This document shows, piece by piece, positions 23,135 to 57,725 of a stretch of 64,000 nucleotides of DNA. How positions within the stretch are numbered: position 1 is the stretch's first letter; the number at the start of each line of letters is the position of its first letter. Origin of the DNA: Cladocopium goreaui (lineage: Eukaryota; Sar; Dinophyceae; Suessiales; Symbiodiniaceae); NCBI GenBank assembly GCA_947184155.2, contig CAMXCT020000526.1:135001-199000 (forward strand). Direction: 5' to 3'. The translations under genes and the position numbers were made by a program. The notes under the pieces are model-generated. The model made no database searches. It saw only the letters and a program-made list of their open reading frames with translations, and was not told the DNA's origin.

Positions 23135-23230
23135 CAGCTTAGCTCTCAGCATGTCCTTGAGAAGGTGGAGCAGCCGCAAGAAATGGATCTGTTTTCCCAA
23201 GTCCACCACGATGGAGTCCAGCACCAGGCG
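23135..23230 (-). CDS. Candidate exon: alternating-hydrophobic segment, unknown protein
   Basis: A 32-codon island on the minus strand with strong G/C at third positions. It lies between GGGACAG (acceptor) and GTTGTA (donor). It reads VLDSIVVDLGKQIHFLRLL followed by HLLKDMLRAK: a beta-like stretch running into an amphipathic helix. That pattern is seen in repeats of bridge-like lipid-transfer proteins, but also elsewhere. It is the last exon found before the satellites, so the 3' end of the gene is unaccounted for. Confidence 0.45.
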
Positions 23231-23761
23231 CTGTCCCGTGGGCGCACCAGCCTTGGTGGATGGTCCAGTGCTTGTACCCCAAGGATCAACAAGGGAAGGT
23301 GGAGAAAGTTCAACAAGGAGAGAAAATGATGGACAGGTGGGTATGTTCATCTGGGCACATCCAATGTTGCCCTCATAGTTTCAAATACGATGAAAGATAT
23401 CTGATACATTGTGACATGGAATGTGCCTCTGCAGGGCTGAAAACCAGGGCAAAGTCAGCATGCCAGTATGGAGACTGCAAGGCATTCGCCTGCAACAAAC
23501 ATGAACCCATATAAAAACAATAATGGACCCCAAGATTCTAATGTTGACCTCAGAACAAGAACCATGATTGGTCCGTTTATTCGGGTGTCTCTGAACATGT
23601 GAATGAAACCCATCAAATTTGAAGGTCAATAATCATTGTCCTTAGCTGGGGGGTTTGTCCCCTATTTTCCGCATCAGCACTCCTCTGACCACAGCAGCTA
23701 GGTCCCCAGCTTCTGGACGGTGGATGGGCAGCAACCTGTGGTGCCAGCTGAGCATGAGTAG

Positions 23762-23884
23762 CCTCTGGTGTCATCAAACATGGCAACTTGAAGTCCTATA
23801 TGGGTATGGATCAATACCTATTAATACCATTTTTAGTGGGATGAACATCCATTTACCAGCTATTTTGATGTTCACCAGGGGGAT
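23762..23884. mobile_element. Fold-back element (CCTCTGGTG...CACCAGGGG family)
   Basis: Left arm CCTCTGGTGTCATCAAACAT pairs imperfectly with the right end (GCTATTTTGATGTTCACCAG). It shares the 'CTCYGGTAATCAAACATRGC' end with elements at 34755, 39673, 44107, 48870 and 54339. No coding capacity, so MITE- or introner-like. Confidence 0.55.
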
Positions 23885-24020
23885 AGGGTTTTGACCCATC
23901 CCCATATAAATGTGGGTTTTCATGGGAAAATAGTCGAACTGAATATATACGGGGATTGCTGGCCATGTCTGACATCTCCAGGGGATATGATATATTTACC
24001 CGAAACTGGCACATTGCACA

Positions 24021-24330
24021 TGTATATATACGTACGTATATATATATATATATATATATACACATGTGAATATATATAATAATAGTAATAATAGGAATAA
24101 CAACAACAATAATAACAATAACAACAACGATAATAATAAAAAACACCAATAAAAATAATAAAATGATAATAATAACAATAATGATAATAGTAATAATGAT
24201 AGTAATAACAACATGTAATAATAATAACACCAATGATAATAATCACAATAATAATAACAACAATAATAATGACAACAATCATAATACTAATAATAATGAT
24301 AATAATAATAATGTATATATATATATACAT
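24021..24330. repeat. TA and AAT/AAC microsatellite
   Basis: (TA)n with TACGTACG, then about 230 bp of AATAATAAC/GATAAT trinucleotides ending in (TA)n again. Confidence 0.95.
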
Positions 24331-24448
24331 GTGTGTCTATTGCGTAATGTGTACATTACATACATACCATGTATCTGAAGGTAGTGCTATACCACGCTAC
24401 ACCTATACAGTCTCAGTTTGTTCATAGGACGGCTACCATTAGATCTGC

Positions 24449-24482
24449 AGCCCACTGCCGGATGGCCATGGCAAACACGCTG
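24449..24482 (-). CDS. Candidate micro-exon
   Basis: Minus-strand island after acceptor ATGCCAG. It reads SVFAMAIRQWA and ends at a GC donor that keeps frame with the exon at 23135. The same acceptor context and SSV-AM- start occur in the exon at 46715-46750, so the two may be related repeats. Confidence 0.4.
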
Positions 24483-24947
24483 CTGGCATGTCGATTCCTG
24501 AGATCTAGTTTGGGGGTCACCATAATGAATGTGTCCGGAGCTAGACAGCCGGCAATTTTGACATCATATCTGGTAGGGGCATTGGGGATCTCATGGTTTT
24601 TTGGTAGTGAGATTGTGACCTTCTAGGAAGATCTTACGAGCACCAGATCTGACAATGATATCAAACGCAAGCTCTCAACCAACGTCACTTCTTTCTGGGC
24701 TCTTGCTGATTCACTTTTACTTTTGCGTAGAATGTCGTTGTTTTCTTCTTGGATGTATGTATTAAACACATCTCAATCTCGATTGATATCTACTATTTGA
24801 TTCATCTTGTTCAGTGTTGATCTCTTGATCTCAATTCAAGTTGATATCAACCTAGCTGAGTCTTCAGAAGTTTGATATCTACTATTATCTACTAATTGAT
24901 TCATCCTGTGGTCCATTATGAAGCTCCCAAGCCTTTCGATCCCACGC

Positions 24948-25051
24948 GCTTGGGCCCCCAAAGGCCCCCAGGGGCCGCGCCTGGCGCTGCAGGGAGCCAC
25001 CAGGTCGTCCACCAAGCAACGCCAGGAGGACTCGGACTCAGCAGCCAGCTC
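24948..25051 (-). CDS. Candidate exon
   Basis: Acceptor ATATCTCCCAG, then ELAAESESSWRCLVDDLV and an arginine/glycine/proline-rich end, all with G/C third positions. A GC donor (GCGTGG) carries the frame into 24449-24482; a GT donor two bases further would not. The plus strand is also open here but lacks a matching splice frame. Confidence 0.45.
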
Positions 25052-25059
25052 CTGGGAGA

Positions 25060-26010
25060 TATCCAAGCTGGGAAAGATGCTATTGCACATATGATATATG
25101 ATATATGATCTATATATATATATATAACTTAATCTTAATTATATATATAACTTATATATACATATAACTTATATATATATAACTTATATAACAAATTATA
25201 ATAATACGATATAGTGTGGTAATAATGTGGTAAACAACATGCTATAAACCATGCGCAAAATCACCATAAATGGGTTGTACATACAACTCCAAATGGTAGG
25301 TTTATTATCGGGTTTCCCACATTAGTATGTTTAAGAGTTCGTAATCTTTTGGGTAACCGTCCGTTCCACAGAAGTGAACATCAACGTGATTAGGGACCTT
25401 TTGAAAGGATGACAACTTCTGTGGAACGTGAACAACTTCTGTGAAACGTGCACAACATCTGTGAAATTTGCACAACATGTCTGAAACACTATCAATAACT
25501 CTTGAATAGTTTATACCCACATATAAATAAAATTATATAATATTACAATGTAGATTATACATATAACTATACAATATTACAATGTATTTTCGACACATAA
25601 CATCATATAACTATATATATATGTAATATTACGATGTATATTCTCTATGATATGATATGATATTATAGGACTTTCTACTGTTCTGTCCCACAGTAGCGAA
25701 TTCAAGCAATCTGTCTCCCTCACGCTTACATTCTTTGCGATTTAACCACTTTAAGTCCAACAGGACAACCAGGAACATAGGATGTCACCCAGGCCATCCC
25801 GGACGTTTTGGCACTTGGCACTTCCGGATTTCCAACCGCAAAAACCATCCTGGGAACAACATTTTGTTGTTTTGGACAGCTCACTGCAGCCGTTTCAAGC
25901 TCGACTGAATGGGGGGAATATTACAGTGCCGAAACTACCCATCCAATATTTTCCCAGTATATATACATATATGGGAATCGATCCCCATTATGAGGGTTTG
26001 ACCTGTTCCC
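25060..26010. other. AT-rich intron, no gene seen
   Basis: TATATA tracts (25100-25200, 25600) and unique AT-rich DNA. A GTGAACAACTTCTGTG-like short repeat lies at 25410-25470. No exon found. Confidence 0.5.
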
Positions 26011-26016
26011 ACGTGC

Positions 26017-26088
26017 CTCCACGCTTGCAATGCTGCCACTCCGCGCTTGTCGTTGTTCAAAGAGGGACAGGGACAGGACGGCCTGACC
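26017..26088 (-). CDS. Candidate exon
   Basis: Strong pyrimidine-rich acceptor (GCCCTCCCTTCGCAG), 24 codons reading GQAVLSLSLFEQRQARSG and onward, then a GC donor (GCACGT). It is phase-compatible with its neighbours at 27552 and 25051. Confidence 0.5.
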
Positions 26089-26763
26089 CTGCGAAGGGAG
26101 GGCGAAACCATGACCCTTGCAGGACCCAGGGAAGTACCTCTGGGATATATCCCACATGTAAGCTGGCTATATACCAACTAACTGGAATGTACATCCAAGT
26201 GATCATCTATCTCGGTCATGGAAAATCTCTTAATGAGAAAACCATATGAACTCGGAATTTATTGGATAGAAGTGCGATACGTCAGTTTGGAGAATAATAT
26301 TCCATTGCCATGCTAGATTACTACCGAAGGGTATGCTGAGGCAAATCCGTGCGCAAGGTGGGTGAGTGTTTAAATTAGAGAGCGATTCATATGTTGATTT
26401 AAACATACTTGGAACATCTTGGAACCTCAGAGTCATCAGCAAAATATACCTGACTATCTTATTTGATCTTATTTGTATGTACTCGTATGAAGCCGGAGGC
26501 CAAGAAGCGGCTGTGAATCAGGCGTGAATGAGATGGCCCTTACATTTGCCACCAAAGAGGCCCAGATGTTTGGTGATTGCCCTTTGACAGACCTACAAAA
26601 TATTCCAGATGGTATATCTTTCCTGCAGCATTCCACCGCCAAATCACTCCTGTCAACCACCTTGGATTGACTCCAGATCAACCCGAGGATGTTCGGTTGC
26701 GAGGGGAAAAATAAAAAGTGGACACGATGAAACCACACTCACGCAACCACAATTCATCAGTCC

Positions 26764-26955
26764 ATGTTATTTAATTGTCCTCATCATTCTTTATCATCAT
26801 CATTCCTTATCATCATCATTCTTTATCATCATCATTCTTTATCATCATCATTCTTTGTCATCATTCTTTATCATATTTATCATCTTCATCACCATCATCA
26901 CCATCATCATCGTCATCATCACCATCATCATCGTCATCATCATAATCATCGGTAC
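26764..26955. repeat. ATC/TTTATCATC microsatellite
   Basis: TCATCATTCTTTATCATC units followed by ACCATCATC and CGTCATC trinucleotide variants. Confidence 0.95.
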
Positions 26956-27470
26956 TACTGCTACTACTGTATGATCGAGTGTGACATTATATAATTGTTA
27001 TTGTTACGGATGTTACTATTGTATATGACCATTGCTATTATCATTACTATATTATATATATTACTAAGTACTATCATCATTTACAGTATATTCTCGTACA
27101 TTATTGTGGTAAATTTGAAACCAATGCCCATATTCCCCGACATATATATATATATGTGTGTGTGTATGTGGTGTCAACTATCCAAACTTTGAAGTTATGG
27201 CATTGGGTTCACCTCATTATATACTTTCATCAACAGGATTGCTCCTAACACAGATTCCATGCGGTGGTGATTCCATGAAGAGGTAAAATGATTCCATGAT
27301 GACAATGGGCTTTCATTTGCCTGGTTTACCTCTTATGGGTCGGTTGCTCCACCTGGATTAAGGCCTACTGTCTATCATGTCGTCGGCAAACTCAACCAAT
27401 ACGTGAAGTAGCTCCGGACTTCCCATTATTCATTCATAGGGATGATGTGGGATTATGGAAGCTATAGCTA

Positions 27471-27510
27471 TCCCATATAATCCCATATAATCCCATATAA
27501 TCCCATATAT
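27471..27510. repeat. TCCCATATAA tandem decamer
   Basis: Four copies of a 10-bp unit in tandem in an intron. Confidence 0.9.
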
Positions 27511-27551
27511 CTGGTTATGGTTTATGACACCCATAGCTAGAACCTACGCTC

Positions 27552-27643
27552 CGCCAGCGCCTCAAAGCTGGACCCAACGCTGCGAGCGCTGGCTTCATTG
27601 ACGCAGGCCACCAGGAAGGGCACACCGTTCGCTTGGCTGTTGC
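27552..27643 (-). CDS. Candidate exon
   Basis: Acceptor AATCTCCCCAG. It reads NGVPFLVACVNEASARSV then GSSFEALA, with mostly G/C third positions. A GA donor (GAGCGT) gives frame with 26088; a GT donor (GTAGGT) four bases on is stronger by sequence but shifts phase. The pattern -F-A-VN---A-S- resembles the exon at 47097-47149. Confidence 0.5.
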
Positions 27644-28052
27644 CTGGGGAGATTTTGCAAATGCCCAACAACTATACAGTATACACATATATATAATTAT
27701 ATGATCAATTATGATCATATATTATATGTATGAAGCTACCTAAGTTCATGGAAATTATGAGGTTTTCATCTTCAGCGGTCACTTAAGTGTGGTTTCCAGC
27801 ATTCACTCGGAGACATGTCAAAGCCATATTCTCCTTCAACGGGTAGGTTTTTTCATCAACTTGGGGAACGGCAACAACACATTGACCAGGAACCGGAGAA
27901 GAAAAGGTACATGTTCATAAAACGATCAAACATGGTGTATTGTCTACGTACAATACATATATATATGTATGTATATGTATGTATACACGGTATAGTATAG
28001 TTATACAGTTTGGAAAACACTGTATCCGGTACTGTATAACATCCCGTAACGC

Positions 28053-28098
28053 TATTCTCATGAGCAATCTTGTTTCGGAGATCAAACATCTGCCGCAC
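28053..28098 (-). CDS. Candidate exon
   Basis: Acceptor GACTCTTCTCAG, then VRQMFDLRNKIAHEN. A GC donor (GCGTTA) gives the phase needed by 27643; a GT donor (GTTACG) lies two bases beyond. The helix-like charged sequence contrasts with the beta-like exons downstream. Confidence 0.45.
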
Positions 28099-28532
28099 CT
28101 GAGAAGAGTCTCAGAGACACTGTGCCCAACTCCACCTGGCAGGGCCTTTCTTTTTCATGGGTAAATCTGGGGCCTTTCATCGTGCAAAAGGCAGGGAAAA
28201 AACAAGAAGAACAAGAGGATATCAAAAGGGACATGATTATCTACCTAGCTAGGCATGTTTCTCGCAGCAGGGACCGAAGGGGCTATAAATGCGGCAGTCT
28301 TAAACCTTCAAACAGGGTTTCAATCATCTTGTGCCATGGCAGCAAAATTACCCTTCTGGGAAGTGCTCAACTTGAAGGTTGTCCTCCAGTATTGGGAATG
28401 CCTACAAGTGTGGACTCAAATCAACCATGATTTGATGTTTAGAAACTGGTGCAAATTTCCAGAATCTTCAATGTAAATACACGGTTTCAAGAGGACCCAA
28501 AAGAAGGCAACAAAAATTACCAAAATGGTATC

Positions 28533-29640: not shown

Positions 29641-30095
29641 TGGGGCTACTACCTGGGGACCCAACCCATGGGGGGGGGGGTGGAGAGACGGAGGACGGGA
29701 CCATATATACACCTACTTGTGTATATATATACACATATTATACACGTATATATATAATGTATATATATATATTTTTTATTAATATACATATTATATATGT
29801 ATATATATATATTATATATATTATATTATATATGAACAATGTAACTCCGTTTTTTATACACATGTCTGGGATCTTTCAGGTCAGTGGGCCCCTTCGTTTG
29901 CTTCTCAAGCGACGGTAGTCCTGAAGTCTTTGTACGTCTTTGTTCCATTCATATGAGTCTTATAAAGTTTCATATGTATGACTTATATACAAAAATCACA
30001 CACACACAACACAATTTGTCCTCAGGGATTCATCACCCCATTTTCAGGTAAAAACTAAGCAGTTGGTAGCTGCACCCCACGGCCACGCCAGCCAC

Positions 30096-30149
30096 CTGAA
30101 CGCGAATCACTTCAGCCGTCTCTGCTCTTTTCGGTGTTGGCGCTGGTGC
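30096..30149 (-). CDS. Candidate micro-exon
   Basis: Acceptor AATTCCCCAG, 18 codons APAPTPKRAETAEVIRVQ, donor GTGGCT. Frame 0 to 0. Both splice sites are conventional and third positions are G/C-biased. Confidence 0.5.
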
Positions 30150-30223
30150 CTGGGGAATTTGCAATACCACCCCCTATGGTCTCAGGGCAATCGAAGGGAT
30201 TTCAAAGGGAATGTAACCACTTA

Positions 30224-31115: not shown

Positions 31116-31117
31116 TG

Positions 31118-31590
31118 TTGGTTGGTTTAGGGTGTATTTAGGGTTTGTTTAGGGTCATTTAAGATTGGTTTCGGGTTGGTGTAGGGTTTATTTTGGGGTT
31201 GGTTTAGGGTTGGTTTAAGGTTTATTTTGTGTTGGTTTAGGGTTTATCCAGAGCTATTTAGGAATGGTTTAGGGTTTATTTAGGGTTGGTTTAGGGTTGG
31301 TTTAAGGTTTATTTAGTGTTGGTTTAGGGTTTATCCAGAGTTATTTAGGAATGGTTTAGGGTTTATTTAGGATTGGTTTAGGGTTGGCTGAAATTGATTC
31401 AGGGTTGGTTTCGGGTTTATTTAGGGTTGGCTAGTGGTTTAGTGTCATTTAGGTTTGGTTTAGGGTTGGTTTAGTGTCTATTTAGAGTTGGTTATGTCGG
31501 GTTGGTTCAAGGTTTATTTGAAGTTTATTTAGGGTTGGTTTTGGTCATTTAGGGCTATTTAGGGTTATTCAGGGTTTGTTTAGGGTCTAT
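31118..31590. repeat. Degenerate TTTAGGG-type repeat
   Basis: More than 25 TTTAGGG or GTTTAGGGTTGG units with GGTTTATT spacers. TTTAGGG is the plant-type telomere repeat, also reported in dinoflagellates. The irregular spacing and internal position suggest an interstitial relic. Confidence 0.7.
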
Positions 31591-32035
31591 TATAGATGGA
31601 TGGATGGATGGATCGATAGATCAATAGATCGATCGATAGATAGATAGACAGATAGACAGACAGACAGATAGATAGATAAGATTAGATTAGATAAGATTAG
31701 ATAAGATAAGATAAGATTAGATTAGATTAGATAGATAGATAGATAGACAGATAGATAGATAGATCGATAGATCGATCGATAGACAGATAGACAGACAGGC
31801 AGATAGATAAGATAAGATAAGATAAGATAAGATTAGATTAGATTAGATAGATAGATTAGATAGATAGATTATATATATATTATATATACATATACTTAGA
31901 TAGATAGATAGATAGATAGACAGACAAATAGATAGATAGATAGAAAGGATAAGATAGGATAGGATAAGATAAGATAAAATCAGATAAGATAAAATAAGAT
32001 AATTGATAAGATAAAATAAGATAAGATTAGAGTAG

Positions 32036-32066
<31 letters not shown>

Positions 32067-32400
32067 GACAGACAAATAGATAGATAGTTAGATAGATAGA
32101 TAGATAGGTAGACAAATAGATAGATATATATATATTATAGATAGATAGATTAGATAGATTAGATAGATTAGATAGATTAGATAGATTAGATATATTAGAT
32201 AGATTAGATAGATTAGAATGGATTAGATAGATTAGATAGATTAGATAGATAGAGTAGATTAGATTAGATTCGATTAGATTAGATTAGTTTAGATTTAGAT
32301 TTAGATAGATTAGATAGATTGGATAGATAGATCAGATAAGATACGATTAGGTTAGATTAGGTTAGATTAGATAGATCGATAGATAGATAGATAGGTAAAG
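31590..32400. repeat. GATA/AGATT/AGATAAGAT microsatellite
   Basis: About 800 bp of GATAGATA, GATTAGATTA and AGATAAGATA with CAGACAGA interruptions. A simple-sequence block with no gene. Confidence 0.95.
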
Positions 32401-33721: not shown

Positions 33722-33774
33722 CTGCTCTGGGAAGTGAAGCATGCAGCAAAGGTCAGGAGCGGAGAGGCAGCCAC
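33722..33774 (-). CDS. Candidate exon
   Basis: Acceptor AACTTGTCTCAG, VAASPLLTFAACFTSQS, donor AG|GTCCTG. Its exit phase matches 33474. A plus-strand alternative (SLQDLLWEVKHAAK with GTCAGG donor) exists. Confidence 0.4.
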
Positions 33775-34890: not shown

Positions 34891-34959
34891 GGCAAAAGTG
34901 ATAGCTGTGCTTCTTGGCATAGCCGGACTGCTCGAACCGCCTCGTTGCGAAAGGTTCAC

Positions 34960-35001
34960 TCGAAGCCAGGCGCGCTTCCGTGGCTCTTCGCCGACCTTCT
35001 C
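34960..35001 (-). CDS. Candidate exon
   Basis: Acceptor GCGCCGCTGCAG, 14 codons EKVGEEPRKRAWLR, donor GTGAAC. It is GC-rich and flanked by AT-rich DNA. The plus strand is also open. Confidence 0.4.
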
Positions 35002-36200: not shown

Positions 36201-36212
36201 CTATCCTACTTA

Positions 36213-36324
36213 GTGGCTCATCCCACTTAGTAAGTGGGTTATAACCCCAGTTATAAGTGGATTAACCCTACTTATCCCATCTATAACTGGGGTTATAACC
36301 CACTCACTAAGTGGGATGAGCCAC
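36213..36324. mobile_element. Long hairpin fold-back element, 43-bp arms
   Basis: GTGGCTCATCCCACTTAG... at 36213-36255 is almost perfectly complementary to 36282-36324, with a 26-nt loop. Inner arms carry CAGTTATA/TATAACTG. No coding capacity. It lies 44 bp from the exon at 36368. Confidence 0.85.
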
Positions 36325-36367
36325 CAAGTATCGACTGTTGATAGAATCCCAAAATCCAATGGGCCTC

Positions 36368-36430
36368 GGAGCTTTCCAGCGCGAAGTGGGGTCGGGCCAT
36401 GCGCAGCCGGGCACTCAGGTGGTCCTGGCG
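36368..36430 (-). CDS. Candidate exon
   Basis: Acceptor CACGTCGCCAG. It reads RQDHLSARLRMARPHFALE then SS, strongly G/C at third positions. A GA donor (GAGGCC) leaves phase 0 for 35001; a later GA donor at 36357 would leave phase 2. Confidence 0.45.
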
Positions 36431-37851: not shown

Positions 37852-37972
37852 CAGGCTTTCCACTGAGTGAATCCGCAAGATCAGCATTTTCCAGCCGCAC
37901 CTCGCCCGCCACCAAGCTCACGTCCAAGGCAATGGACGAGCGAAGCGACAAAGCCAGCCGCACCCGCGAAGC
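37852..37972 (-). CDS. Candidate exon: beta-rich segment, lipid-transfer-like pattern
   Basis: A 40-codon island after acceptor TTTCCTTGAAG and before donor GTATCA. It reads ALDVSLVAGEVRLENADL preceded by an alternating RVRLALSLR strand. 'L-S-GEV-LEN--L' is the pattern of the N-terminal chorein-type repeat in VPS13/ATG2 proteins. The match is to the motif as I know it, not a search result, and the exon is not at an obvious N terminus. Confidence 0.45.
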
Positions 37973-38168: not shown

Positions 38169-38242
38169 CAAGCGACCGCCGCAGGCGGTGCTGGCGCTGG
38201 TGCTGATGGTGACGCTGATGCTGGCGGTGATTCGGATGGTGC
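38169..38242 (-). CDS. Candidate exon
   Basis: Acceptor GCCGATGGCAG, donor GTGACC. In the frame that joins 37972 it reads TIRITASISVTIS then STSASTACGGRL, a strongly beta-like strand. Other frames give Pro/Ala/Ser or His/Gln-rich readings because the DNA is repetitive (GCTGGCGGT). Confidence 0.4.
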
Positions 38243-38671
38243 CTGCCATCGGCACGGGGGGCCACACAATCTTTATATGAAAAGGTTGAATCACTGACTT
38301 ATCCTGTCTGATTGTGTAACCCAAGAAACGTTGCTGAAAGTTGATTGTTTTTCTTCGGGGTTTCGGTAGCCAGAACTCAGTTTCTAGGTTCCATGTCAGA
38401 TTTTAGCACAACTCCTCAACTAATCCATGCGTTTCCTTTCAAACAAGCCACTGCACAGTGCGCAAAAGTTAGTTGGGTACAGCCTGTTGAAACTGTGAGA
38501 TGCAAGCATAGGATTCTAGAATATAGTATGAATAATATATATATATATATATGAATATGTACAAATCTAGTGAAACTCCGGATGTATCAAATATGGACCA
38601 ACATCTGTTCCAATGGGTAAATGCCCACCTGTCCAGGCTGAGCCTCATATTCTACCTACCCCTGCAGCTAC

Positions 38672-38920: not shown

Positions 38921-39032
38921 ATCGAATCGGCAGCATTGGCCCACGGGCGCCGAGGCACCCATTCTTGCAGGGCACGGAGCTGCTGCGCATGCAGGCGAAT
39001 CTTCAAGGGCGTCAACTTCAGGTTCACCTGCG
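38921..39032 (-). CDS. Candidate exon
   Basis: Acceptor CTCTTTTCCAG. It reads NLKLTPLKIRLHAQQLRAL then QEWVPRRPW, strongly G/C at third positions. The strand-then-helix layout resembles the exon at 23135. Donor GTACGT at 38921 breaks phase with 38710; an earlier GTGCCT site or a missing exon may explain this. Confidence 0.45.
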
Positions 39033-40819: not shown

Positions 40820-40864
40820 CTCTGATCTCCAGAACTGTGCGCTGGCATGGGTGTCCCCATCCAC
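40820..40864 (-). CDS. Candidate micro-exon
   Basis: 15 codons VDGDTHASAQFWRSE between GTGCAGAG and GTGATG, frame 0 to 0. It is the last exon of the stop-free chain that starts at 57725. Confidence 0.4.
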
Positions 40865-42000: not shown

Positions 42001-42048
42001 CTGAATCCATGGGTCTGTGGCCACGATCAACGGCGAAGTGAAACAGGC
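42001..42048 (-). CDS. Candidate micro-exon
   Basis: Acceptor ATTGCTGCCCAG, ACFTSPLIVATDPWIQ, donor GTGCAC, frame 0 to 0. Both splice sites are clear and the island stands out from AT-rich surroundings. Confidence 0.5.
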
Positions 42049-42908
42049 CTGGGCAGCAATGCACTAGTCTAGTGAATTGGAATATGAAACTGTCGCATGT
42101 ACAAAGATGGAAGCAAAAACAGAGTCGACACCCACCAGTCATCATGAATGAATAAGAATGAACAAGAATTTCTACGTGGCCCCACTTTGCCACAGCAAGT
42201 TACATGGGTCGCTTCATGAGATTTTGTTGAGATGCCAAGGTTTGATTTGGTGAACTCACCAAGAACTGGATGGGTCAAAAGGGGGATCAGGGTCCCAGGG
42301 GTTAAAAACCCCATCCACGCCCCGAAAAACCAATATGTACTATATATATATATAATTGGTACTGCGTCATCCATATACCTCGGCAATCCTAGGCATATGT
42401 ATACTTTGCACGTTGGACCCAATATACAGGGGCAACCTTAGATAACCAACCGTAAATAATCGGCAAATTAACTCGTTTGAGTGGCTGGTCAGTTAGTCTT
42501 TCTCATATTTGGCAAAAAAGTAACCCACGTCAACCTACCAAACCCAGGTAAACCATGGTAAACCCATTTTACTGGCAAAATACAATTTTGATGCTTTTTG
42601 TGGATCCATTGATGCACCACCATTTTTCAGCCATACACATATCATATGGTTGGTTATACCCCATGGTACCCATGATTTTTTCATGATATCCCATAAGATG
42701 TGGTCTCTCTAGATAAGGATAAGGCATCCCACCATTTCCATGGGTTGAAGTCAACAATCAGCCATGGCCGTGGAATATCCCCATGGATCCCCACGGCACC
42801 CGAAACAGCCTCCGAAAATCATGGCTGGAGATCCCTTTCTCGATGATCTTCCTAGCAAACCTCCATGTTGGGGGATTTCCCCGTTTGCTAAGCACCCCAA
42901 CTACTGTC

Positions 42909-43565: not shown

Positions 43566-43831
43566 CTGATCAAACTGAAAACTTCTGTTTTGCTACACAC
43601 ATCTTCACAGAAACAACAAGGAAACATCTAAAATCAGACAGACTATCATGATCTATCTTTAGCAACGATGCAGTATTATCAGCCATGCAGTATTATCAGC
43701 CATGCAGTATTATCAACCATCATAAATCATTATCAACCATATCAACCATGCATTTTTGGAGTGTTTTGCATATGTTTCCCCTCTGTCATCCCGACAAACC
43801 TCCGAAAAAAAAACATGTCAGGCCCCCGCAC

Positions 43832-43870
43832 CTCCCAGGCCGCCAGGGTGGCAGAGGCCAAAAGCTCGGC
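43832..43870 (-). CDS. Candidate micro-exon
   Basis: Acceptor GAAACTTCCTCAG, 13 codons AELLASATLAAWE, donor GTGCGG. Frame 0 to 0, alanine/leucine helix. Confidence 0.5.
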
Positions 43871-44216: not shown

Positions 44217-44938
44217 GGACTCATGAAGTAGTGACCAACTCATGAGGAATGGGAGATACCGGATCGTACTACGATTATCTAATGACTTTAAAAATCTTTA
44301 AAATAGTTCTGAACAATTAATCTTGCAACCATTTCTGGGCTGGACTATCTTAGACATCTGGGCTTGACTGGGGGGTCCCTGATTGAGAATTGAGAATTGG
44401 TGCAAGGATGCGTAAAATTGTATCCCCAGGTGCTGTTTCAATGCGCTAACAATACCTTCTGCTAAACTGTGGATCCGCAGGATTTACAAATTCCAACAGT
44501 TTGACACATGCAACATCTTACAACTACTGCTTCAATCATGGAAATCAGATTTGAGATGATCTGAGATGATCTGAGCATATAGTCGCGATTCCAACATGTT
44601 GAATAGATTTGCTAGAGGTCTTGCCCTCATGGTTGCTCATGATCCTTTCACTCCATCTCCCTACGCCTAAGAAACTGTCAAGAAATGAAGTACCAATGGG
44701 TCCAGAACATGCCATTCTCGGGTTTACCACGTCATCTATATAACCATCCAATTTTCAACATCTATATCATCCCCATGAAATCTCCACATTCTGGTTGGCT
44801 AAGCTGGGTTATATACCCATCAAAAAATCCCTAAGTTGTCCCACATTATAGCCCTTAAATATCCTTAAATGAAATGCCGAAATGCCCTGTTGCGTCTTCT
44901 GCTCCTGAATCAACCACCGGCCCGGCGGAAAAATGCAC

Positions 44939-44986
44939 CTGTTGCGTCGGTGCCGCTGGAAACTCATTCTCTGTCGCCTTCGGGGC
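44939..44986 (-). CDS. Candidate micro-exon
   Basis: Acceptor TTACGGTGCATCAG, APKATENEFPAAPTQQ, donor GTGCAT. Frame 0 to 0; low-complexity linker-like composition. Confidence 0.45.
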
Positions 44987-46142: not shown

Positions 46143-46714
46143 CTGATGAAAGGCCAGCCAAGCGTGCCAGAACATAAGCTTAAAGCTTATGAATTGGGTT
46201 TTGGGATCGTGAAAAGTGTAGATGACAAATTTCCATAAGAACATTATTAATCCATTTTTGGAAAGCTCAACATTTTTAATTATGACATTTCCAGAAATTG
46301 TTGAAAGTAAGGATCTTCTTTGGGGAAGAACATGTGCAGTCGACAACGTACGTGCCAGAAGAAAAGGAATACTTGGCAAACTGTATGAAATACAAATTTC
46401 ACCTGAAAGGGGTCTTCGCAATTCCCTGAAATTTCCCAGCTATTTTGGCATGGAATATGTTCGGCCCTGGAATATGGGCAAGAAATTGCTAGAATTATCA
46501 AAAACATACAACCAGTATCCTGGTTGCTGGCTAAGCCATCCATCAAATGGAGAAAGTCATTGGGACAATCAACAAACACTGGAGATTTCGCCCGACTAAA
46601 GATAGGGAGATATTTCGCAACAATGCTCTAGTGATTCTAGTGAGCCGCCCAAAGGATGGGGGATGCCTGTCACAACCTCGCCCCAGCCATGGAACCTGCG
46701 CCGGTTCCATGGTC

Positions 46715-46750
46715 GCCAAGTGTAGCAAGCGCATGGCCAGGGACACGCTG
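46715..46750 (-). CDS. Candidate micro-exon
   Basis: Acceptor TTTACGCGCCAG, SVSLAMRLLHLA, GA donor (GACCAT). The first bases CAGCGTGT match those of the exon at 24482. The plus strand reading (CSKRMARDTLLA) is an alternative. Confidence 0.4.
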
Positions 46751-47096
46751 CTGGCGCGTAAATTCAACTGGTGCCTTAGATCTGCCCCACCGAACGACAT
46801 ATGATAGTCTATCTACGCCAACAATCCGACCATCCAACCATCCATCTCTCCGTCTATAAATTAACATTAGAATTAATATTATTTATATGTATTATCATAT
46901 ATATATATAGATATATAGATATATACATATATGTGCGAATAATATATGGATGGATGAAATTGAATGAAAGTGAATGAACATTGAATGAAATTGAAAAACA
47001 CATGAATATACATGAATAACATTGAATGAACACACACACGCATCGTGTTTTTTAAAGGTAACAATATGTAACAATGTCTTTTTCCCTGTGAAATAC

Positions 47097-47149
47097 TGCG
47101 GAAAGCTCTTGGCTCCCTGCGAGTTCACGAAGGCCGCAAAGATGTTGCC
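47097..47149 (-). CDS. Candidate exon
   Basis: Acceptor TACCATTGAAG (or GCAAACCAG-type site at 47190), GNIFAAFVNSQGAKSFP, donor GTATTT. Third positions are almost all G/C. The sequence resembles the exon at 27552 (VPFLVACVNEASARS). Confidence 0.5.
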
Positions 47150-47305
47150 CTTCAATGGTAGCACCTTCGTCGGCGGTTGGTGATCGTTGCCTGGTTTGAT
47201 CAGATCCTGGTTTCTTTTTGAAAGATTGTATACTCCATCCATAAGACACCCACACATGGAACAACTATATATATATATATACATGTATTATAATCATACA
47301 TAATC

Positions 47306-49364: not shown

Positions 49365-51770
49365 TATATACAGGATTGTACAAACGTGATACATCCGCCG
49401 ACCCCGGCCTTCGCCAAGGCCGGGGCGGCGCCTGGGACCACCGCAGGTGTGGAACTTTTCCGCGCACATAGCCCTCTCTCGTTAAGGTACCAACAAGCCC
49501 AACACACGCCACTCCCGCACACAAAAGCCACCACAAGGCCACAGCAATGGCTCAAGCGCACCTCACGGCCGCAGCAATGGCTTCTTATACGCGTTCAAGG
49601 CTGCCGTTTGCCAGGCCTCAAACGCTCCAAAACCCTCCAAAACCCTCCAAACCCTCCAAACCCTCCAAAAGTCCGGCCAGCTCCGCAGGGAAAAGGTACC
49701 CCAACAAGCCCAACACGCGCCACTGCCGCACGCAAAAGCCACCACAAGGCCACAGCAATGGCTCAAGGGCACCCCACGGCCGCAGCAATGGCTTCTTATA
49801 CGCGTTCAAGGCTGCCGTTTGCCAGGCCTCAAACGCTCCAAAACCCTCCAAACCCTCCAAAAGTCCGGCCAGCTCCGCAAGGAAAAGGTACCCCAACAAG
49901 CCCAACACGCGCCACTCCCGCACGCAAAAGCCACCACAAGGCCACAGCAATGGCTCAAGGGCACCCCACGGCCGCAGCAATGGCTTCTTATACGCGTTCA
50001 AGGCTGCCGTTTGCCAGGCCTCAAACGCTCCAAAACCCTCCAAAACCTCCAAAAGTCCGGCCAGCTCCGCAAGGAAAAGGTACCCCAACAAGCCCAACAC
50101 GCGCCACTGTCCGCACGCAAAAAGCCACACAAGCCACAGAAATGGTCAAGAGCACCCCACGGGCCGCAGGCAAGGGCTTCTATAGCGTTTCAAGGGCTGC
50201 CGTTTTTCCAGCCTACAAAGCTCAAAAACCTCCAAAACCTCCAAAAGTCCGCCTCCAAACCCTCCAAAAGTCCGGCCAGCTCCGCAAGGAAAAGGTACCC
50301 CAACAAGCCCAACACGCGCCAGTCCCGCACGCAAAAGCCACCACAAGGCCACAGCAATGGCTCAAGAGCACCCCACGGCCGCAGCAATGGCTTCTTATAC
50401 GCGTTCAAGGCTGCCGTTTGCCAGGCCTCAAACGCTCCAAAACCCTCCAAACCCTCCAAAAGTCCGGCCAGCTCCGCAAGGAAAAGGTGCCCCAACAATG
50501 GCCCAACAAGTCCAACACGCGCCACTCCCGCACGCAAAAGCCACCACAAGGCCACAGCAATGGCTCAAGGGCACCCCACGGCCGCAGCAATGGCTTCTTA
50601 TACGCGTTCAAGGCTGCCGTTTGCCAGGCCTCAAACGCTCCAAACCCTCCAAGCCCTCCAAACCCTCCAAAAGTCCGCCCAGCTCCGCAGGGAAAAGGTA
50701 CCCCAACAAGCCCAACACGCGCCACTCCCGCACGCAAAAGCCACCACAAGGCCACAGCAATGGCTCAAGGGCACCCCACGGCCGCAGCAATGGCTTCATA
50801 TACGCCGTTCAAGGCTGCCCCGTGCAGGCCCTCAAACGCCCAAAACCCTCCCCAAAACCCTCCAAAAAGTAAGCGCCAAGTCCGCGAAGGAGGAAAAGGC
50901 GTGTTTTACCCCGCAAGGAAAAGGGGTACACCGACAAGGAAAAAGGTACCCCAACAAGCACCAACACGCGCCACTCCCGCACGCAAAAGCCCACCACAGT
51001 CCACAAGCAAGTATCAAGAGCACCCCACGGCGCCCAGCAATTGGCTTCTATACGCGTTCAAAGGCTGCCGTTTGCAAGCGCATTCAAAACGCTCCCAAAA
51101 CCCTCCAAAACCCTCCACAAACCCTCCAAACCCTCAAAAAGTCAGCGCCAGCTCCGCAGGGAAAAGGGTACAAAAAAAAGACCAACCAGCGACAGGAGCA
51201 CGCAGAAGCCAACAAAGGCACAGCAATGGCCTCAAGGGACAACCATAACGGCCGCAGAAAAAGCAATGGCTAGTATACGTTCAAGGGCTGACGTGCCAGG
51301 CATGTCAAACGCGAGGACAAACATACACAAACCAACGTGGGAGGAAGACCAAACCCAAACCCTCCAAACCCTCCAAAAGTCCGCCCAGCTCCGCAGGGAA
51401 AAGGTACCCCAACAATCCCAACACGCGCCACTCCCGCACGCAAAAGCCACCACAAGGCCACAGCAATGGCTCAAGGGCACCCCACGGCCGCAGCAATGGC
51501 TTCTTATAGGCGTTAAACCCTCCAAACCTTCCAACTCCTCCAAAAGTCCGCCCAACTCCGATGCAAAAGGTACCCCAACAACCCCAACAGGCGCCACGCC
51601 CGCACGCAAAAGCGACGACAAGGCCACAGGCTTGAGAAGCAAACGGCCATATGTCTGTCTTGCTGTCCGTCTCCCTCTCTCTCTCTACAGTACCCCCCTC
51701 CAATTAGGGGGGTCGGCGGCACCTGGGCGCTAGCCCATTCTATATACAGGATTGTACAAACGTGATACAT
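49365..51770. mobile_element. GC-rich tandem-repeat cassette between 30-bp direct repeats
   Basis: Perfect 30-bp direct repeats (starting TATATACAGGATTGTACAAA) lie at 49365-49394 and 51741-51770. Inside, CCGCCGACCCC (49395-49405) and GGGGTCGGCGG (51709-51719) are inverted. The left edge has a 10-bp hairpin CCCCGGCCTT/AAGGCCGGGG (49402-49425). The body is about 11 copies of a 190-210 bp unit (CCACAGCAATGGCTCAAGGG, CCTCCAAAACCCTCCAAA). One frame is open for about 620 codons (49386-51248) with a basic Pro/Ala-rich repeat but no ATG near its start, so I do not call it a gene. It sits in an intron of the candidate minus-strand gene. Confidence 0.75.
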
Positions 51771-52365: not shown

Positions 52366-52434
52366 CTGCCTCAGATAGGAGAATCAGGTTTCATGATACG
52401 CGAACTGATTGAATTTGGGTCAGTTCAAGTCAGC

Positions 52435-52495
52435 CTTTCTTCCAGGTCAGAAATCGTGGCTCGACTTTGAAGGCGTCAGTCTCAAACCTCTCGCG
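52435..52495 (-). CDS. Candidate exon
   Basis: Acceptor GAACCCTTGCAG, FETDAFKVEPRFLTWKK, GC donor (GCTGAC). Joins 52365 in frame through a shared glutamate codon. Confidence 0.55.
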
Positions 52496-53005
52496 CTGCA
52501 AGGGTTCTCCTGCTGCTTTTTGTCATGCGTTGACTCTTGTGTCTGAAAACCCTCATTGGTTTGGCCATTAGAGAATATTCTGTCGATTAAACATTACTAC
52601 CAGTGGATCTGGGGTATACCCCATTTTGATCCATTTTGGAGAAAGTCTGGACCTGGTCTCTTTTAACATGCCTGATCTTTGTCTTTTTTGATCGCGCAAA
52701 AACAATAAAAAACAACTCGATATCCGAGCTAGGTACTGTTTTCCTTCACGTGTGCCTATTCATAATCCATTCACCTACCTTTTTCTCGGAGATTTAGATC
52801 ATGGGTATTTTGATACCCAATAATAGATGTATAACAACAATGAATGATGGATAATGGATGTATAATAGTAAATTACTTAAACCAACTGATTTTGATACCC
52901 AAGGGGTGATCACTAGCGGCACTAGAAGTGGACACCTCCACCAGTTCTCCATCCTTTTTTTTGCAGTTCCTGATGTTCCTGGGGATCTCTTAGGTATCTT
53001 AAGAC

Positions 53006-53064
53006 CTTTGGGGGCCAAGCTGGGGCACATGTCTGTAGTGGTACTCCTGACCAGCTCACTGCGC
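53006..53064 (-). CDS. Candidate exon, frame uncertain
   Basis: Acceptor CTCCCATCAG, donor GTCTTA. Carried phase reads AVSWSGVPLQTCAPAWPPK; a better-biased frame reads RSELVRSTTTDMCPSLAPK. Splice sites are good in both. Confidence 0.4.
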
Positions 53065-53310
53065 CTGATGGGAGGAACAAAAATCATAGGGACCCCCACA
53101 ATCTGACTGGCTTCGGCATGTCCGTGCTGGCCGCCTGGTCAAATCGTCAAAGTTATCCACTCGGATTAATTAGTCATATTCGACTGTGGTCAGTGGTGAA
53201 CATGTAATAATCTCAATACATTGTTACATGTTATATACAAAGGTTAATTGGGGATAATGATCCCATGTATCCTCGAACCCGAAAGATTTGAAACCAATCG
53301 TTGTTCAATC

Positions 53311-53383
53311 CAAGGCCCAGCACGCATCTGGTGGCAGTCTGAGCACTTAGCGGTGCCATAAACCAAGCAACTCTTCGGAACTG
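53311..53383 (-). CDS. Candidate exon
   Basis: Acceptor CCCATCACTCAG, QFRRVAWFMAPLSAQTATR then CVLGL, GA donor (GATTGA). Phase-compatible with 54013 and 53064. Confidence 0.45.
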
Positions 53384-53639
53384 CTGAGTGATGGGTAGTT
53401 CTCTGCCCACAAATGATGTATCGGGGCCCGTTATCATGGCTGGTACACTCTGTGGATCTCTGCAGTACACATGCTTTTCACAAAATCACATATTTCTGCT
53501 CAGATTTGTGAAAAAAGGGACGGGACCAACATAAATCACATAATAACACATTCCTAGTACTCACCCTTACAGACACAGCAAGGCAGTATTTTTTTGGAGA
53601 CAGCTGCGCTAGAAAGCGAGTAAGATCCATGAAACAAAG

Positions 53640-53920
53640 AAACAAATCTAAAGTAGAAGGCATGCCCTCGAGAAATGACCACCCCAGGAACACTCAAGCG
53701 CCACAAAAGAGCGTCCAGAGAGGCCACCAAGGAGAGAGCACCCCCCACAGTAGAAGGCCAAATCCACAGTCACCAGCGCCTCAAACAGACCTCCTCCAGG
53801 GTCAAGACCCAAGAAAAACAGGCAAGAAAGAGAAAGGGCGCAGGCGCAGTACGCTGGCAAAGAGGCGGTGAACTGGGGAAGGCAGTTGGGTCAGCCAAAT
53901 TACTGCGTGTCCAGCCATGA
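53640..53920. other. Coding-like island, strand unresolved
   Basis: Plus strand reads a basic low-complexity stretch (KRHKRASREATKERAP) ending in a TGA at 53920. Minus strand reads a hydrophobic Gly/Leu-rich stretch (GLDPGGGLFEALVTVDLA). Neither has clear splice limits. Confidence 0.25.
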
Positions 53921-54012
53921 TTCGTACTATCAAACAGTGGTCTGCTTACTAGTAGATTCCCCAGTCATGGTGGATTCAGCCATGGAAAAATGAAGAAAAT
54001 CATCAGCGAATC

Positions 54013-54064
54013 CAGGTCTCTCGCGCCTCCAAGCACCACATGTTTCGTATTGCCCTGTGGGGAT
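54013..54064 (-). CDS. Candidate exon
   Basis: Acceptor TCAGAGTTCCAG. In the phase carried from 54488 it reads GNTKHVVLGGARDL, then a GA donor (GATTCG). Confidence 0.45.
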
Positions 54065-54338
54065 CTGGAACTCTGAAGCAGATTGGAACAGGGATGGCAA
54101 GTAGAGGGCAAGTCATGATTTCAAGTGAAAAATCCCAAGAGATTCTGCAAAATCATGTCTCTTGAAGGGTCAACGGTTCCTGAATTTCAGGAAACCACTG
54201 AATTGCAAAATAAATTCTGTCAGTGGAAGACGCTCTGGGGACCTTCACAGGTAGAAAGCAGAAAATGTGTTCAAGGCTTCAGTGTTTCAATTATTTCGGA
54301 TCTGATGGCTACTCACTAAATACAAGTTTTAAAAAAGT

Positions 54339-54464
54339 GTACCCTCCGGCAATCAAACGCGGCTTGCCAGACAAGTCACCAATTTATAGATCATTTTCAT
54401 TGATTTTCCCATTCAAACCTCCATCTATAGAGGATTTCCTAGCCATCTTTGATTACCGGTCATA
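54339..54464. mobile_element. Fold-back element (TACCCTCCGGCAATCAAACG)
   Basis: Left TACCCTCCGGCAATCAAACG pairs with the right end, which reads TGACCGGTAATCAAAGATGG on the minus strand. It starts only 24 bp from the donor of the exon at 54488. Confidence 0.65.
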
Positions 54465-54487
54465 TTCCCCAATAGCGCCCAGGGAGC

Positions 54488-54543
54488 GGCCCGCTATCCT
54501 CGTGGATGATTCCCATGCGTTGCAAGGAGAAGAGGCATTGCAC
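54488..54543 (-). CDS. Candidate exon
   Basis: Acceptor TGATGCCACTGGCAG, VQCLFSLQRMGIIHEDSG, GC donor (GCTCCC). G/C-biased; continues to 54064 without a stop. Confidence 0.5.
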
Positions 54544-54729
54544 CTGCCAGTGGCATCAGTGTTGCTGTAACGTACCAAAGACAACTGGGAAACATGGAGA
54601 AACAAACTGGGGATCCAAAGCGGGCAAAGTGCAAACTCAAGTTCGTACTTAAGCTATACTGTACATCTGCGAGTATTGTGAATATTATGACTGAAGTATG
54701 CAGATATTCATGAGATTTCATGACTATAT

Positions 54730-55730
54730 ATATATAATATGGTTTTCAGAACATCTCAGCATATCTCAGCACCATCCTCTCTTTGTTTCAATCGAACACA
54801 TTGGAAAAAGGGTCTCAAAAAGGGACAGCAACGCGCTTCTTATGAACAAATAAAGCATCCCATCGAACTGCTGGATTTGGTATCGTCAAACTCTGATTCA
54901 TTCTCAAATTGGAATATTCCGAACGGGTCAAAACCTATGGTACATTCTTCATCATTATGGTACCATATTTGAATATATGTGGGGTTCTTGGTAATCTTGG
55001 TACAACAACTTCGATGATTTCATGTACTAGACCGTCTAGACCCAATGATAAACAGTCCACAGCAAGGGCCCCCCAACAAAAACAATCCCCATTGAGGTTA
55101 CCACATATCCACGTCCACATGTTCCAATATGTTTTCATCAGTGGATCCAAATCTTTCACGGGTACATCCACCATTTTTGGCTGGTTATAGCTGGTTGAAC
55201 ATGTGAAATCCCACTTGGCTTTGTCTGAAAAAGACGGATGTCCTCAACTTGGCCGTGGTAATGGCGAAAATGATGATTCGCTATCCAATTTGGGTTACCC
55301 AAATTTAAAGTGGTTCTGAGTTGGCTTATAGACCACATTCACTATGTATGTTTGCCATTAGCCATGGTCAACCCAAGTTATAAACAAACTTAGCCATCGA
55401 CCTGGGGTCCCACCAACTGGTTCAATATCCCAATATCTCACATGAAAAAAACGCGTAAAATGGTTGGTGAAGGTTGGTTATGCCCATGATATTCCCCAAT
55501 TCTCAACCTAGTGAATCGGATCCATCAACTATAAATTAATGAACTTCGATGGGTTAAGTCCCAGTTTTGCTGTGTAAAACACGAAATGTCCCAGGTTCTC
55601 TCCGACATCATAGGTATATATTATCCTGATATATCCTGATTATATCTGATTATATAAATACCTAGTATCTCCCCCATATTTCCATTATATTCCCCAATTT
55701 TCTTTTTTTCAATCAACCATTTTGGTTTGG
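54730..55730. other. Intron-like DNA, no gene seen
   Basis: AT-rich unique sequence with no GC-rich island and no supported exon. Confidence 0.45.
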
Positions 55731-55734
55731 TTAC

Positions 55735-55889
55735 AGTCGCCGACAAAATTATAGAAAAAAAAAGGATAGAAAAATACCGGAGCTGACGGAAAAAACAAAG
55801 AGATCGGATGCGTTATTTTTTTCTATAATTATATATATACGTTTTTTCTATAATCTATAATGTTTTTTTCTATAATTCCGTCGGCGGCT
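55735..55889. mobile_element. Fold-back element with AGTCGCCGAC / GTCGGCGGCT ends
   Basis: AGTCGCCGACAAAATTATAG-AAAAAA (55735-55760) pairs at 23 of 26 positions with the right end. The centre is TTTTTTCTATAAT repeats. A diverged relative spans about 57241-57530. Confidence 0.75.
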
Positions 55890-56633
55890 ATGATTAGTGA
55901 TTAGTCTTGTTGTATGCATTATACTTCCACTGGTTTCACCTCTTTTTCAACAGATTTCACCACCTTACCATAGTTTTCATCACTTCTTCAGTTTATTTCG
56001 TTTATTTTTGCCATGGCTTTCATTATTTTCTTTCTCCCGGTTTCTGGAAACAATTTCCAAAGAAATTCTCTATTCGAAAAATGCACTTTGGGGCTGGATT
56101 AGTTCCCGGCTACCCTTTGGGATATTTTGGGATGATTTTGTGACAACTTTTCTTACGAAATGGTCGTCCAGGATGACCAACCTGTCAAGAAAAGTACACG
56201 TTGATCTGATGATCAGGTGTCAAATGTCCCAGAATATATGTCATAATTTTACCAGTGGTTTGAAACCATTTTCCAACCTATTTCAGCCATTTGCATTTGG
56301 TTTTAAACAATTTTCTGACCCAATTGTTTGTTTTTTTTCATTGGTGTTCAGCAGTTGTTCAACATATTGCAACATTTTACATAGGTCGTCATCAGTTGTT
56401 CAATCTATTATGTTAGCATCGGCTTTCATTAGTTTCTTTCTCCCGGTTTTTGGGAACGATTTCAAAAGGAGTTCTTTGTTCAAAAATGCACTTCGGGGGG
56501 CTGGATCTGACCGGCTACCCTCTTAGCATGATTCTGTGACAACTTTTTTTTGCAGTTCTATGCAATTCTATTTTTTTTATAATTCACTTTTCCCGGAAAT
56601 GGCCGTCCAGGATGACCAATCTGTCAAGACAAG

Positions 56634-57056
56634 TATATATAGCCTCGTCCCCGGTCTTGGAACTGCGCACAACCCGAATTAGGTTGGTAAAACTTGTCAA
56701 TTCCGGGACGAAATTTTGTCCCGGAATTGACAAGTTTCATTAGGGTCATCATCATCATCATCATCATCACAACATCATCATCATCATCATCATCAGCAGC
56801 ATTATATCATCATCATCTGCAGGTTCACATGAACGTTAACATCCCACCCCATCCCCCCCACCCCACCCCGCGTGTGCGTAGCATCAACTGCTTCTGCAAG
56901 TTCACATGAACGTTAACATCCCACCCCATCCCCCCACCCCACCCCGCGTGTGCGTAGCATCAACTGCTTCTGCAAGTTCACATGAACGTTAACATCCCAC
57001 CCCATCCCCCCACCCCATCGTATGTAGTTCCAAGACCGGGGACGAGCCTATATATA
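56634..57056. mobile_element. Inverted-repeat element inserted in a duplicated segment
   Basis: Ends TATATATAG–CTCGTCCCCGGTCTTGGAAC and its complement (CTCGTCCCCGGTCTTGGAACT shared; arms 56644-56664 and 57026-57046). Flanking TATATA may be the target duplication. Inside are a perfect hairpin (56690-56737), an ATC microsatellite and 2.6 copies of a 76-77 bp repeat (56818-57019). Confidence 0.8.
56690..56737. repeat. Perfect 20-bp-arm hairpin
   Basis: AAACTTGTCAATTCCGGGAC, loop GAAATTTT, then the exact reverse complement. Confidence 0.95.
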
Positions 57057-57240
57057 CACATCTGTCAATCAGGTGTCCCAAAATAGATTTCATCACTTTA
57101 GCATTGGTTTCACGCAATTGTCAAACCTATTTCAGCCTTTTGCCATTGGTTTCAATCAATTGTCCAACCTATTTCATTGCTTGTTCATTAGTTTTCGGCA
57201 ACTGTTCAGCAAAAATTAACAGCCTTCGGAAATTCTTGGA

Positions 57241-57530
57241 TGATGTCCCCAAATAATTATAGAAAAAAATGGGTATCAGAAACTATGGAATTCTAGGGAA
57301 ATTTGGCAGGGATTATCCAAAATACAGGGGCAACATGAATTATAGAAACAAGCAAAAGCCCCTTTTTTGTAATATGATAGAAAAACCCTGGAAATGGCCA
57401 AAAGTTCAACGATAAAAACCATCATTTTTTGTTGTTAACCCTTTTGGGGAAAACTTAATTATAGAAAAAACTGATACGGCAACTGCTCGGTAAATTTCTA
57501 TCTTTTTTTTCTGATAATTCTGTTGGTGAC
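57241..57530. mobile_element. Diverged relative of the 55735 fold-back element
   Basis: Left AATTATAGAAAAAAATGGG and right TTTTTTTCTGATAATTCTGT with several internal AATTATAGAAAAAA copies. Weakly paired ends. Confidence 0.45.
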
Positions 57531-57647
57531 CATAAGTCAATCCCATTCAAATCACAGTAAATGCCACTAAAACTCATTAAATCCCGAAAAAAAACACTGA
57601 ATCCCACTAAATCCCAGTAGTGTAAATCCCATCATAATCTGAACATC

Positions 57648-57725
57648 GCGCCCCCTGCCGGCCTTGCTGACGCTGGAAGAGCCGGGGGCTGTTGCGCCGC
57701 ACATCTCCACCGCCTCGTCCTCGGC
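57648..57725 (-). CDS. Candidate exon (strong)
   Basis: Acceptor TTCTTCACCCATAG, 26 codons starting [18 protein letters not shown] and ending with a basic KAGRGR, GA donor (GATGTT). Almost every codon ends in G or C. It opens the stop-free chain that runs down to 40820. Confidence 0.5.

Follow-up and report, generated by a model that had tools for sequence, protein, structure and literature searches.

Does a run of GC-rich islands in the nuclear DNA of the dinoflagellate Cladocopium goreaui hold a protein gene, and if so, on which strand, as how many genes and of how unusual a kind? The islands lie in a stretch of 64,000 nucleotides, here called the window (G000:C526:135001-199000), on a contig of 240,702 bp in an assembly of 1,165,616,438 bp and 6,202 contigs. 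Positions are those of the window unless a contig is named. An earlier note, made from the letters alone, had read positions 23135 to 57725 as one very large micro-exon gene of about 45 exons on the minus strand. The most likely reading is a single-copy 'dark' dinoflagellate gene (one without similarity to known sequences), or two, on the minus strand. The minus-strand coding signal is above chance, certified genes of the assembly are similar in architecture, and a neighbouring gene for ribonucleotide reductase (RNR) has the same orientation.

Gene finder and training data

The final gene finder used 906 codons from exons of PRP8, RNA polymerase and RNR of the same assembly, 331 of them from PRP8 and 386 from RNA polymerase, and no codons from the window. 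Codons of single-exon kinases, with a fraction of G or C at third codon positions (GC3) of 0.52-0.66, were left out of this model. Only internal exons are modelled. The donor weights (GT 0.30, GC 0.52, GA 0.18) are close to those in a table of PMC10666404, and the bonus for an AG/G acceptor, where the slash marks the junction, was our own choice. A repetitive stretch at 49386-51248 was masked in later gene finding. Shuffled sequences were made from blocks of 30 nt, by which local GC content was roughly kept.

Coding signal on the two strands

Over 23050-57800 the best minus-strand chain scored 89.7 versus 40.4±8.6 in shuffled sequence, and none of 60 shuffles reached it; the best plus-strand chain scored 59.2 versus 40.2±12.2 and was reached by 3 of 60. 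In this sense, codon use on the minus strand matches that seen in the assembly's certified genes. The minus strand was ahead in three of four sub-segments: 23-36 kb (30.0 versus 20.3 on plus), 43-49.3 kb (27.2 versus 13.0, the minus score reached by 1 of 40 shuffles) and 51.8-58 kb (17.4 versus 8.1, also 1 of 40). Two minus-strand exons scored above 10 versus 0.10 per shuffle run, five above 6 versus a mean of 1.3, and nine above 4 versus 3.5. It is very likely that the minus strand codes somewhere in the span; most islands lack individual support, as these counts show.

The method was controlled on two genes, each left out of training. PRP8 scored 106.7 versus 28.7±8.4 and RNR 68.7 versus 10.8±4.4, with 20 shuffles each, and a codon model from window exons and RNA polymerase recovered much of PRP8. 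Three other models free of window codons gave 74.5, 98.4 and 115.5 on the minus strand versus 47.7, 70.6 and 78.0 on the plus strand. The contig flanks examined also scored higher on minus (67.0 versus 25.8 and 113.1 versus 79.1), and the minus signal goes on past the window, at contig positions 193000-227000 (21.2 versus 8.0±3.6, reached by none of 25 shuffles).

Two runs with a generic GC3 model gave 123.9 and 112.0 on minus versus 92.7 and 73.8 on plus, and after self-training 265.4 and 271.9 versus 222.4 and 257.3. Since self-training raises both strands, our conclusions rest on the runs with the independent codon model. Early runs (201.3 versus 116.1 with fixed parameters, 252.9 versus 225.5 self-trained) were discarded as circular, because their training exons came from the window.

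Several observations weigh against the favoured reading. In an island test controlled for composition, the minus strand won 34 and the plus strand 25 of 60 islands, a weak result beside 18 versus 6 among 26 islands of the PRP8 control. Per kb, PRP8 and RNR both have more coding signal than the span. At 23-36 kb the minus score was reached by 3 of 40 shuffles, and at 36-43 kb the strands tie, both above 40 of 40 shuffles. Self-training lifted the two strands almost equally in one run (271.9 versus 257.3). The window's chains have no significant match in Pfam or PDB; searches of this kind could still miss a protein of moderate conservation split into stretches of 30 residues. The earlier note had found almost all islands best read on the minus strand; that strand is favoured overall (89.7 versus 59.2), and 'almost all' is too strong for 34 versus 25 of 60.

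The weak island test, and the fact that chains arise in shuffles and on the plus strand as well, would suit islands that are regulatory or compositional rather than exons, with a gene imagined through free splicing rules. We consider this unlikely, given that no shuffle in 60 reached the minus score under a codon model from other genes and that two exons exceed 10 where a shuffle run yields 0.10.

The tie at 36-43 kb (minus 16.1, plus 17.4) could mean that this segment is partly coding on the plus strand, where 38185-38260 scores 14.6 under one model and 38185-38240 scores 10.5 with PRP8 codons. That stretch, however, contains a two-copy 18-nt repeat, the segment also includes 39027-38905, one of the two strongest minus-strand exons, and the contig flanks examined favour minus; plus-strand coding here is highly improbable.

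Islands and exon cores

A plain GC threshold over 60 nt gives 71 GC-rich islands in 23-60 kb, repeats counted in; the islands first described are present. Reading by eye gave 29 minus-strand exon cores of 662 codons, with a mean core of about 68 nt, none shorter than 39 nt, and a GC3 of 0.74. An AG/G acceptor stands at 21 of the 29 cores versus 3.6% of background positions, a count biased by the choice of cores by eye; GT, GC and GA donors are all present at exon ends, all three having been permitted in advance. The boundaries proposed for the span and its frame coincide with splice-like sites: 57725 is preceded by acceptor-like atag/GCC, 40820 is directly followed by donor-like /gtgatg, 36430 has acceptor-like gccag/CGC and 23135 is directly followed by donor-like /gttgta. 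A minus-strand coding signal with short exons and introns in the kb range is supported, with candidate splice sites that would suit rules of dinoflagellate type and a mean exon closer to 70-90 nt than to the 60 nt first given.

A decayed gene, with some real ancestral exons in a whole no longer translated, would account for a coding signal below that of PRP8 and RNR, for the several hand-read exons passed over by the gene finder and for the lack of any conserved domain found. Against decay, the hand-read cores have a GC3 that falls between the values for RNA polymerase (0.60) and PRP8 (0.81), and we think decay unlikely; that the cores are free of stops is no evidence here, as they were chosen so.

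Reading frame and number of genes

As support, the earlier note had offered a frame carried without a stop from 57725 to 40820 and from about 36430 to 23135. Under its splicing rules the minus strand gives 24 exons and an open chain of 2.2 kb, versus a mean of 17.5 exons and 1.6 kb in 15 shuffles, and the plus strand likewise yields stop-free chains. Within 12 nt of the core end, three exit phases are available in 15 of the 29 cores, two in 13 and one in a single core. With stop-free chains in shuffles and on plus, and with 28 of 29 cores reaching at least two donor phases, the carried frame is no evidence; stop-free frames joined over free splice sites are no proof on their own.

The same freedom of joining would allow two or more separate minus-strand genes to have been run together, for example one at 23-48 kb and one upstream of the repeats at 49.4-51.7 kb. 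The span is split by a repetitive stretch with repeated peptides and a tandem array (49640-50867), and the minus signal persists past the window on the contig. Nothing direct stands against such a division under a gene finder that models internal exons alone, and reading further turned up one candidate for a last exon, at 23069; we regard the division as possible, if on the unlikely side. A single 35-kb gene of at least 40 exons, coding for a large single-copy protein particular to dinoflagellates with a fold new to Pfam, seems improbable. Of the claim of one very large gene with some 45 exons, the minus-strand coding signal is supported, and the single gene and the exon count go further than the scores do, with five exons above 6 versus 1.3 in shuffles.

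Candidate exons

The candidates are given below, all on the minus strand.

57651..57725, minus: candidate exon of 25 amino acids; AG/G acceptor; score 8.0 for 57725-57629 with the independent codon model
47096..47188, minus: candidate exon NDHQPPTKVLPLKGNIFAAFVNSQGAKSFPQ; score 4.9; island z 2.6 on minus
46696..46773, minus: candidate exon HQLNLRASSVSLAMRLLHLATMEPAQ; AG/G acceptor by eye; score merely 1.8
44878..44986, minus: candidate exon of uncertain frame, either PRRRQRMSFQRH... or APKATENEFPAA...; score 6.9; different frame picked in another run
43829..43870, minus: candidate exon AELLASATLAAWEV; AG/G acceptor; score 2.6
42800..42850, minus: candidate exon KIIEKGISSHDFRRLFR; AG/G acceptor and GT donor by eye; not picked by the gene finder
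42001..42048, minus: candidate exon ACFTSPLIVATDPWIQ; AG/G acceptor and GT donor by eye; not picked by the gene finder
40820..40864, minus: candidate exon VDGDTHASAQFWRSE, end of the first frame of the earlier note; AG/G acceptor and GT donor by eye; not picked by the gene finder
38929..39027, minus: exon VNLKLTPLKIRLHAQQLRALQEWVPRRPWANAA, among the two strongest; score 10.6 for 39027-38905; island z 3.3
38169..38242, minus: ambiguous candidate that reads TIRITASISVTISTSASTACGGRL on minus and AVLALVLMVTLMLA on plus; two-copy 18-nt repeat inside; plus scores higher
37874..37972, minus: exon ASRVRLALSLRSSIALDVSLVAGEVRLENADLA; score 7.1 for 37972-37896
36362..36430, minus: candidate exon RQDHLSARLRMARPHFALESSEA; score 4.1 for 36424-36365; acceptor AG/C, or AG/G 6 nt on
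34932..35001, minus: candidate exon EKVGEEPRKRAWLRVNLSQRGGS, further frames open too; score 6.0
33724..33774, minus: candidate exon VAASPLLTFAACFTSQS; AG/G acceptor by eye; not picked by the gene finder
30057..30149, minus: candidate exon APAPTPKRAETAEVIRVQVAGVAVGCSYQLL; AG/G acceptor; score 1.0
27546..27641, minus: candidate exon NSQANGVPFLVACVNEASARSVGSSFEALAER; AG/G acceptor; score 2.2
26005..26088, minus: candidate exon GQAVLSLSLFEQRQARSGSIASVEARGN; AG/G acceptor; gene finder start 26137, score 3.4
24947..25051, minus: candidate exon ELAAESESSWRCLVDDLVAPCSARRGPWGPLGAQA; AG/G acceptor; score 4.8
24437..24496, minus: candidate exon NRHASSVFAMAIRQWAADLM; AG/G acceptor and GT donor by eye; not picked by the gene finder
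23445..23489, minus: candidate exon ANALQSPYWHADFAL; AG/G acceptor and GT donor by eye; not picked by the gene finder
23069..23251, minus: exon AGAPTGQRLVLDSIVVDLGKQIHFLRLLHLLKDMLRAKL, possibly terminal; score 10.7 for 23251-23135; open to the TGA at 23071-23069

The exon from 23251 stays open beyond 23135, where the carried frame had ended, up to this TGA, directly after which tandem arrays begin; 23069..23251 may therefore be the last exon.

Homology searches

Pfam was scanned at E up to 10 with the first chain, the minus-strand frames of 23-38, 38-48 and 48-58 kb, ten peptides and two curated chain parts. On the plus strand the scan covered one of the three frames of 23-38 kb. DUF4380 (E 0.11, ten peptides) and FkbO_Hyg5-like_N (E 0.16, minus frames of 48-58 kb) were treated as chance matches. 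Three phmmer queries against the PDB gave nothing significant, two being without a match and the third having a best E of 0.74; its hits to a pyocin sheath (E 0.74) and to B2 protein (E 1.6) were likewise taken as chance. No relative of one 159-amino-acid chain part was found among IMG/VR viral contigs, nor of another part of 207 amino acids among GTDB prokaryote contigs. A missing conserved homologue had been named by the earlier note as telling against its gene; none was found with the window's chains in Pfam and PDB or with parts in IMG/VR and GTDB, which bears on that claim in part.

All 25 matches of a 734-amino-acid chain to its own assembly fall in the window itself, which rules out a dispersed repeat family as the source of the cores; the search gave no second copy of the chain. 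By their appearance the exons had suggested a VPS13-like bridge protein, an idea dropped as the chains have no such Pfam match; VPS13_N gave two matches in the assembly (E 4.9 and 9.1), neither in the window, in a search insensitive for exons of 30 amino acids. Neither Rfam nor a tRNA scan gave a match in the window. A search allowing up to 3 mismatches found no DinoSL-like site there; this carries little weight, as the leader is attached by trans-splicing.

Proposed gene and its neighbour

We hold it rather probable that the span contains an ordinary dinoflagellate nuclear protein gene, possibly two adjacent ones, on the minus strand, with short exons and a 'dark' product. Such a gene would be transcribed from the minus strand, presumably as a single transcript, with its coding sequence divided among exons of about 70-90 nt, between which lie introns ranging from a few hundred nt to several kb. 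The introns would start with GT, GC or GA and mostly end with AG before G. Splicing, at joins predicted here, would be the work of the spliceosome, just as for the genome's other genes. Some introns would carry tandem arrays, and one a high-copy palindrome. The product would be a 'dark' dinoflagellate protein, in which no domain was recognised and for which the assembly gave no second copy; any function would be presumptive.

On the same contig, a minus-strand chain at C526:115001-124500 was identified as the RNR large subunit (PF02867, 5.4e-34; PF00317, 2.2e-19) in a run trained on PRP8, RNA polymerase and hand-read exons, with RNR and homology input excluded. The gene is seen at C526:115371-120400, minus strand, in short exons (upstream part only). 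It is co-oriented with the proposed window gene, some 38 kb off across tandem arrays, and is one neighbour only. Dinoflagellate genes are described in PMC11453091 as mostly co-oriented.

Repeats and other features

Eight tandem arrays of at least 150 bp lie between 158 and 193 kb of the contig. Next to a candidate exon, at 36206-36330, some 124 nt form an almost perfect palindrome, whose fold (131 nt) has -98.2 kcal/mol and z -16.2. Genome-wide it has at least 82 matches, from 40 scored of 1276 candidates, and identity among those listed is mostly 94-98% for one strand and 85-88% for the opposite one. It is a foldback mobile element, possibly of the introner or miniature inverted-repeat transposable element (MITE) kind.

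Much of 1-22990 is covered by tandem arrays, with units of about 190-213 nt containing CAG runs, 108-nt units, a CAA run, and tandem units of 16 nt CACAGAAGCTTTTACA and 21 nt CAAGATGGGCCAACATAGCCC. A degenerate TTTAGGG-like array and then an ATAG array occupy 31120-32394. The repetitive stretch at 49386-51248 has a plus-strand open frame of 620 codons, rich in RPQQW, and long minus-strand open frames too. To the right of the window, C526:228000-235500 has long minus-strand open frames with the look of a Copia-type retroelement by eye; two pieces of these were without a Pfam match. Another contig, G000:C1 (7,377,000 bp), contains numerous kinases within long open frames, and RNA polymerase beta is matched there over its full length in a single frame; the contig is probably a bacterial genome that was assembled along with the algal one.

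Comparison with other genes

On the minus strand of G000:C4179:261101-272249, the PRP8 PROCN profile (PF08083, 407 positions) is matched by 12 pieces in collinear order, each 63-156 nt long and together spread over 11 kb. Seven of the 12 have E 0.001 or better, the rest being collinear, and two run across stops; the pieces are spaced about 0.3-2.6 kb apart. At six places the junctions, read by eye along the order of the human protein, have the form N/G[TCA]...AG/G. The second-largest subunit of RNA polymerase (PF00562) is found on C6126, C2513, C296/C2207 and C5950 in stop-free pieces of 60-186 nt, and on C6126 a gap of about 12.6 kb between pieces may partly hold unmatched exons. The C1 match and longer stop-containing pieces on C5395, C5950 and C296 were left out of this comparison.

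Micro-exon genes of the schistosome type have runs of exons of at most 36 nt. The present locus is not of that type, all 29 hand cores having at least 39 nt. Its architecture is not special, as the assembly's genes for PRP8 and for the second subunit of RNA polymerase look much the same. Short exons are the norm in this genome. The pattern of splice sites, the many introns of the PRP8 and RNA polymerase genes and the size of the assembly are in keeping with a dinoflagellate. Since PRP8 itself lies in short exons with introns in the kb range, certified genes of the same assembly are the yardstick for any 'micro-exon gene' flag.

In a table of PMC10666404, intron donors in six of seven columns are GT 24-75%, GC 25-58% and GA 0.1-24%, the last column having GT 99.9%, and the AG/G acceptor accounts for 79.7-97.1% in six columns and 56.5% in the last. 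Apart from a last column with 3.4 exons per gene, mean values in PMC10666404 and PMC7245778 are 8-19 for the number of exons in a gene, 99-240 nt for exon length and 0.39-4.7 kb for intron length.

Dark genes are described in PMC6249206 and PMC11453091 as common in dinoflagellates, and the proposed window gene resembles them in that the searches above gave no similarity to known sequences. The RNA polymerase second-subunit genes are conserved and occupy several loci, unlike the window gene, and share with it short stop-free pieces and a long gap. PRP8 differs in its strong universal conservation and higher coding signal, and is like the window gene in its minus-strand chain of short pieces, kb spacing and codons ending in G or C, with N/G[TCA]...AG/G junctions that the candidate exon ends of the window would match.

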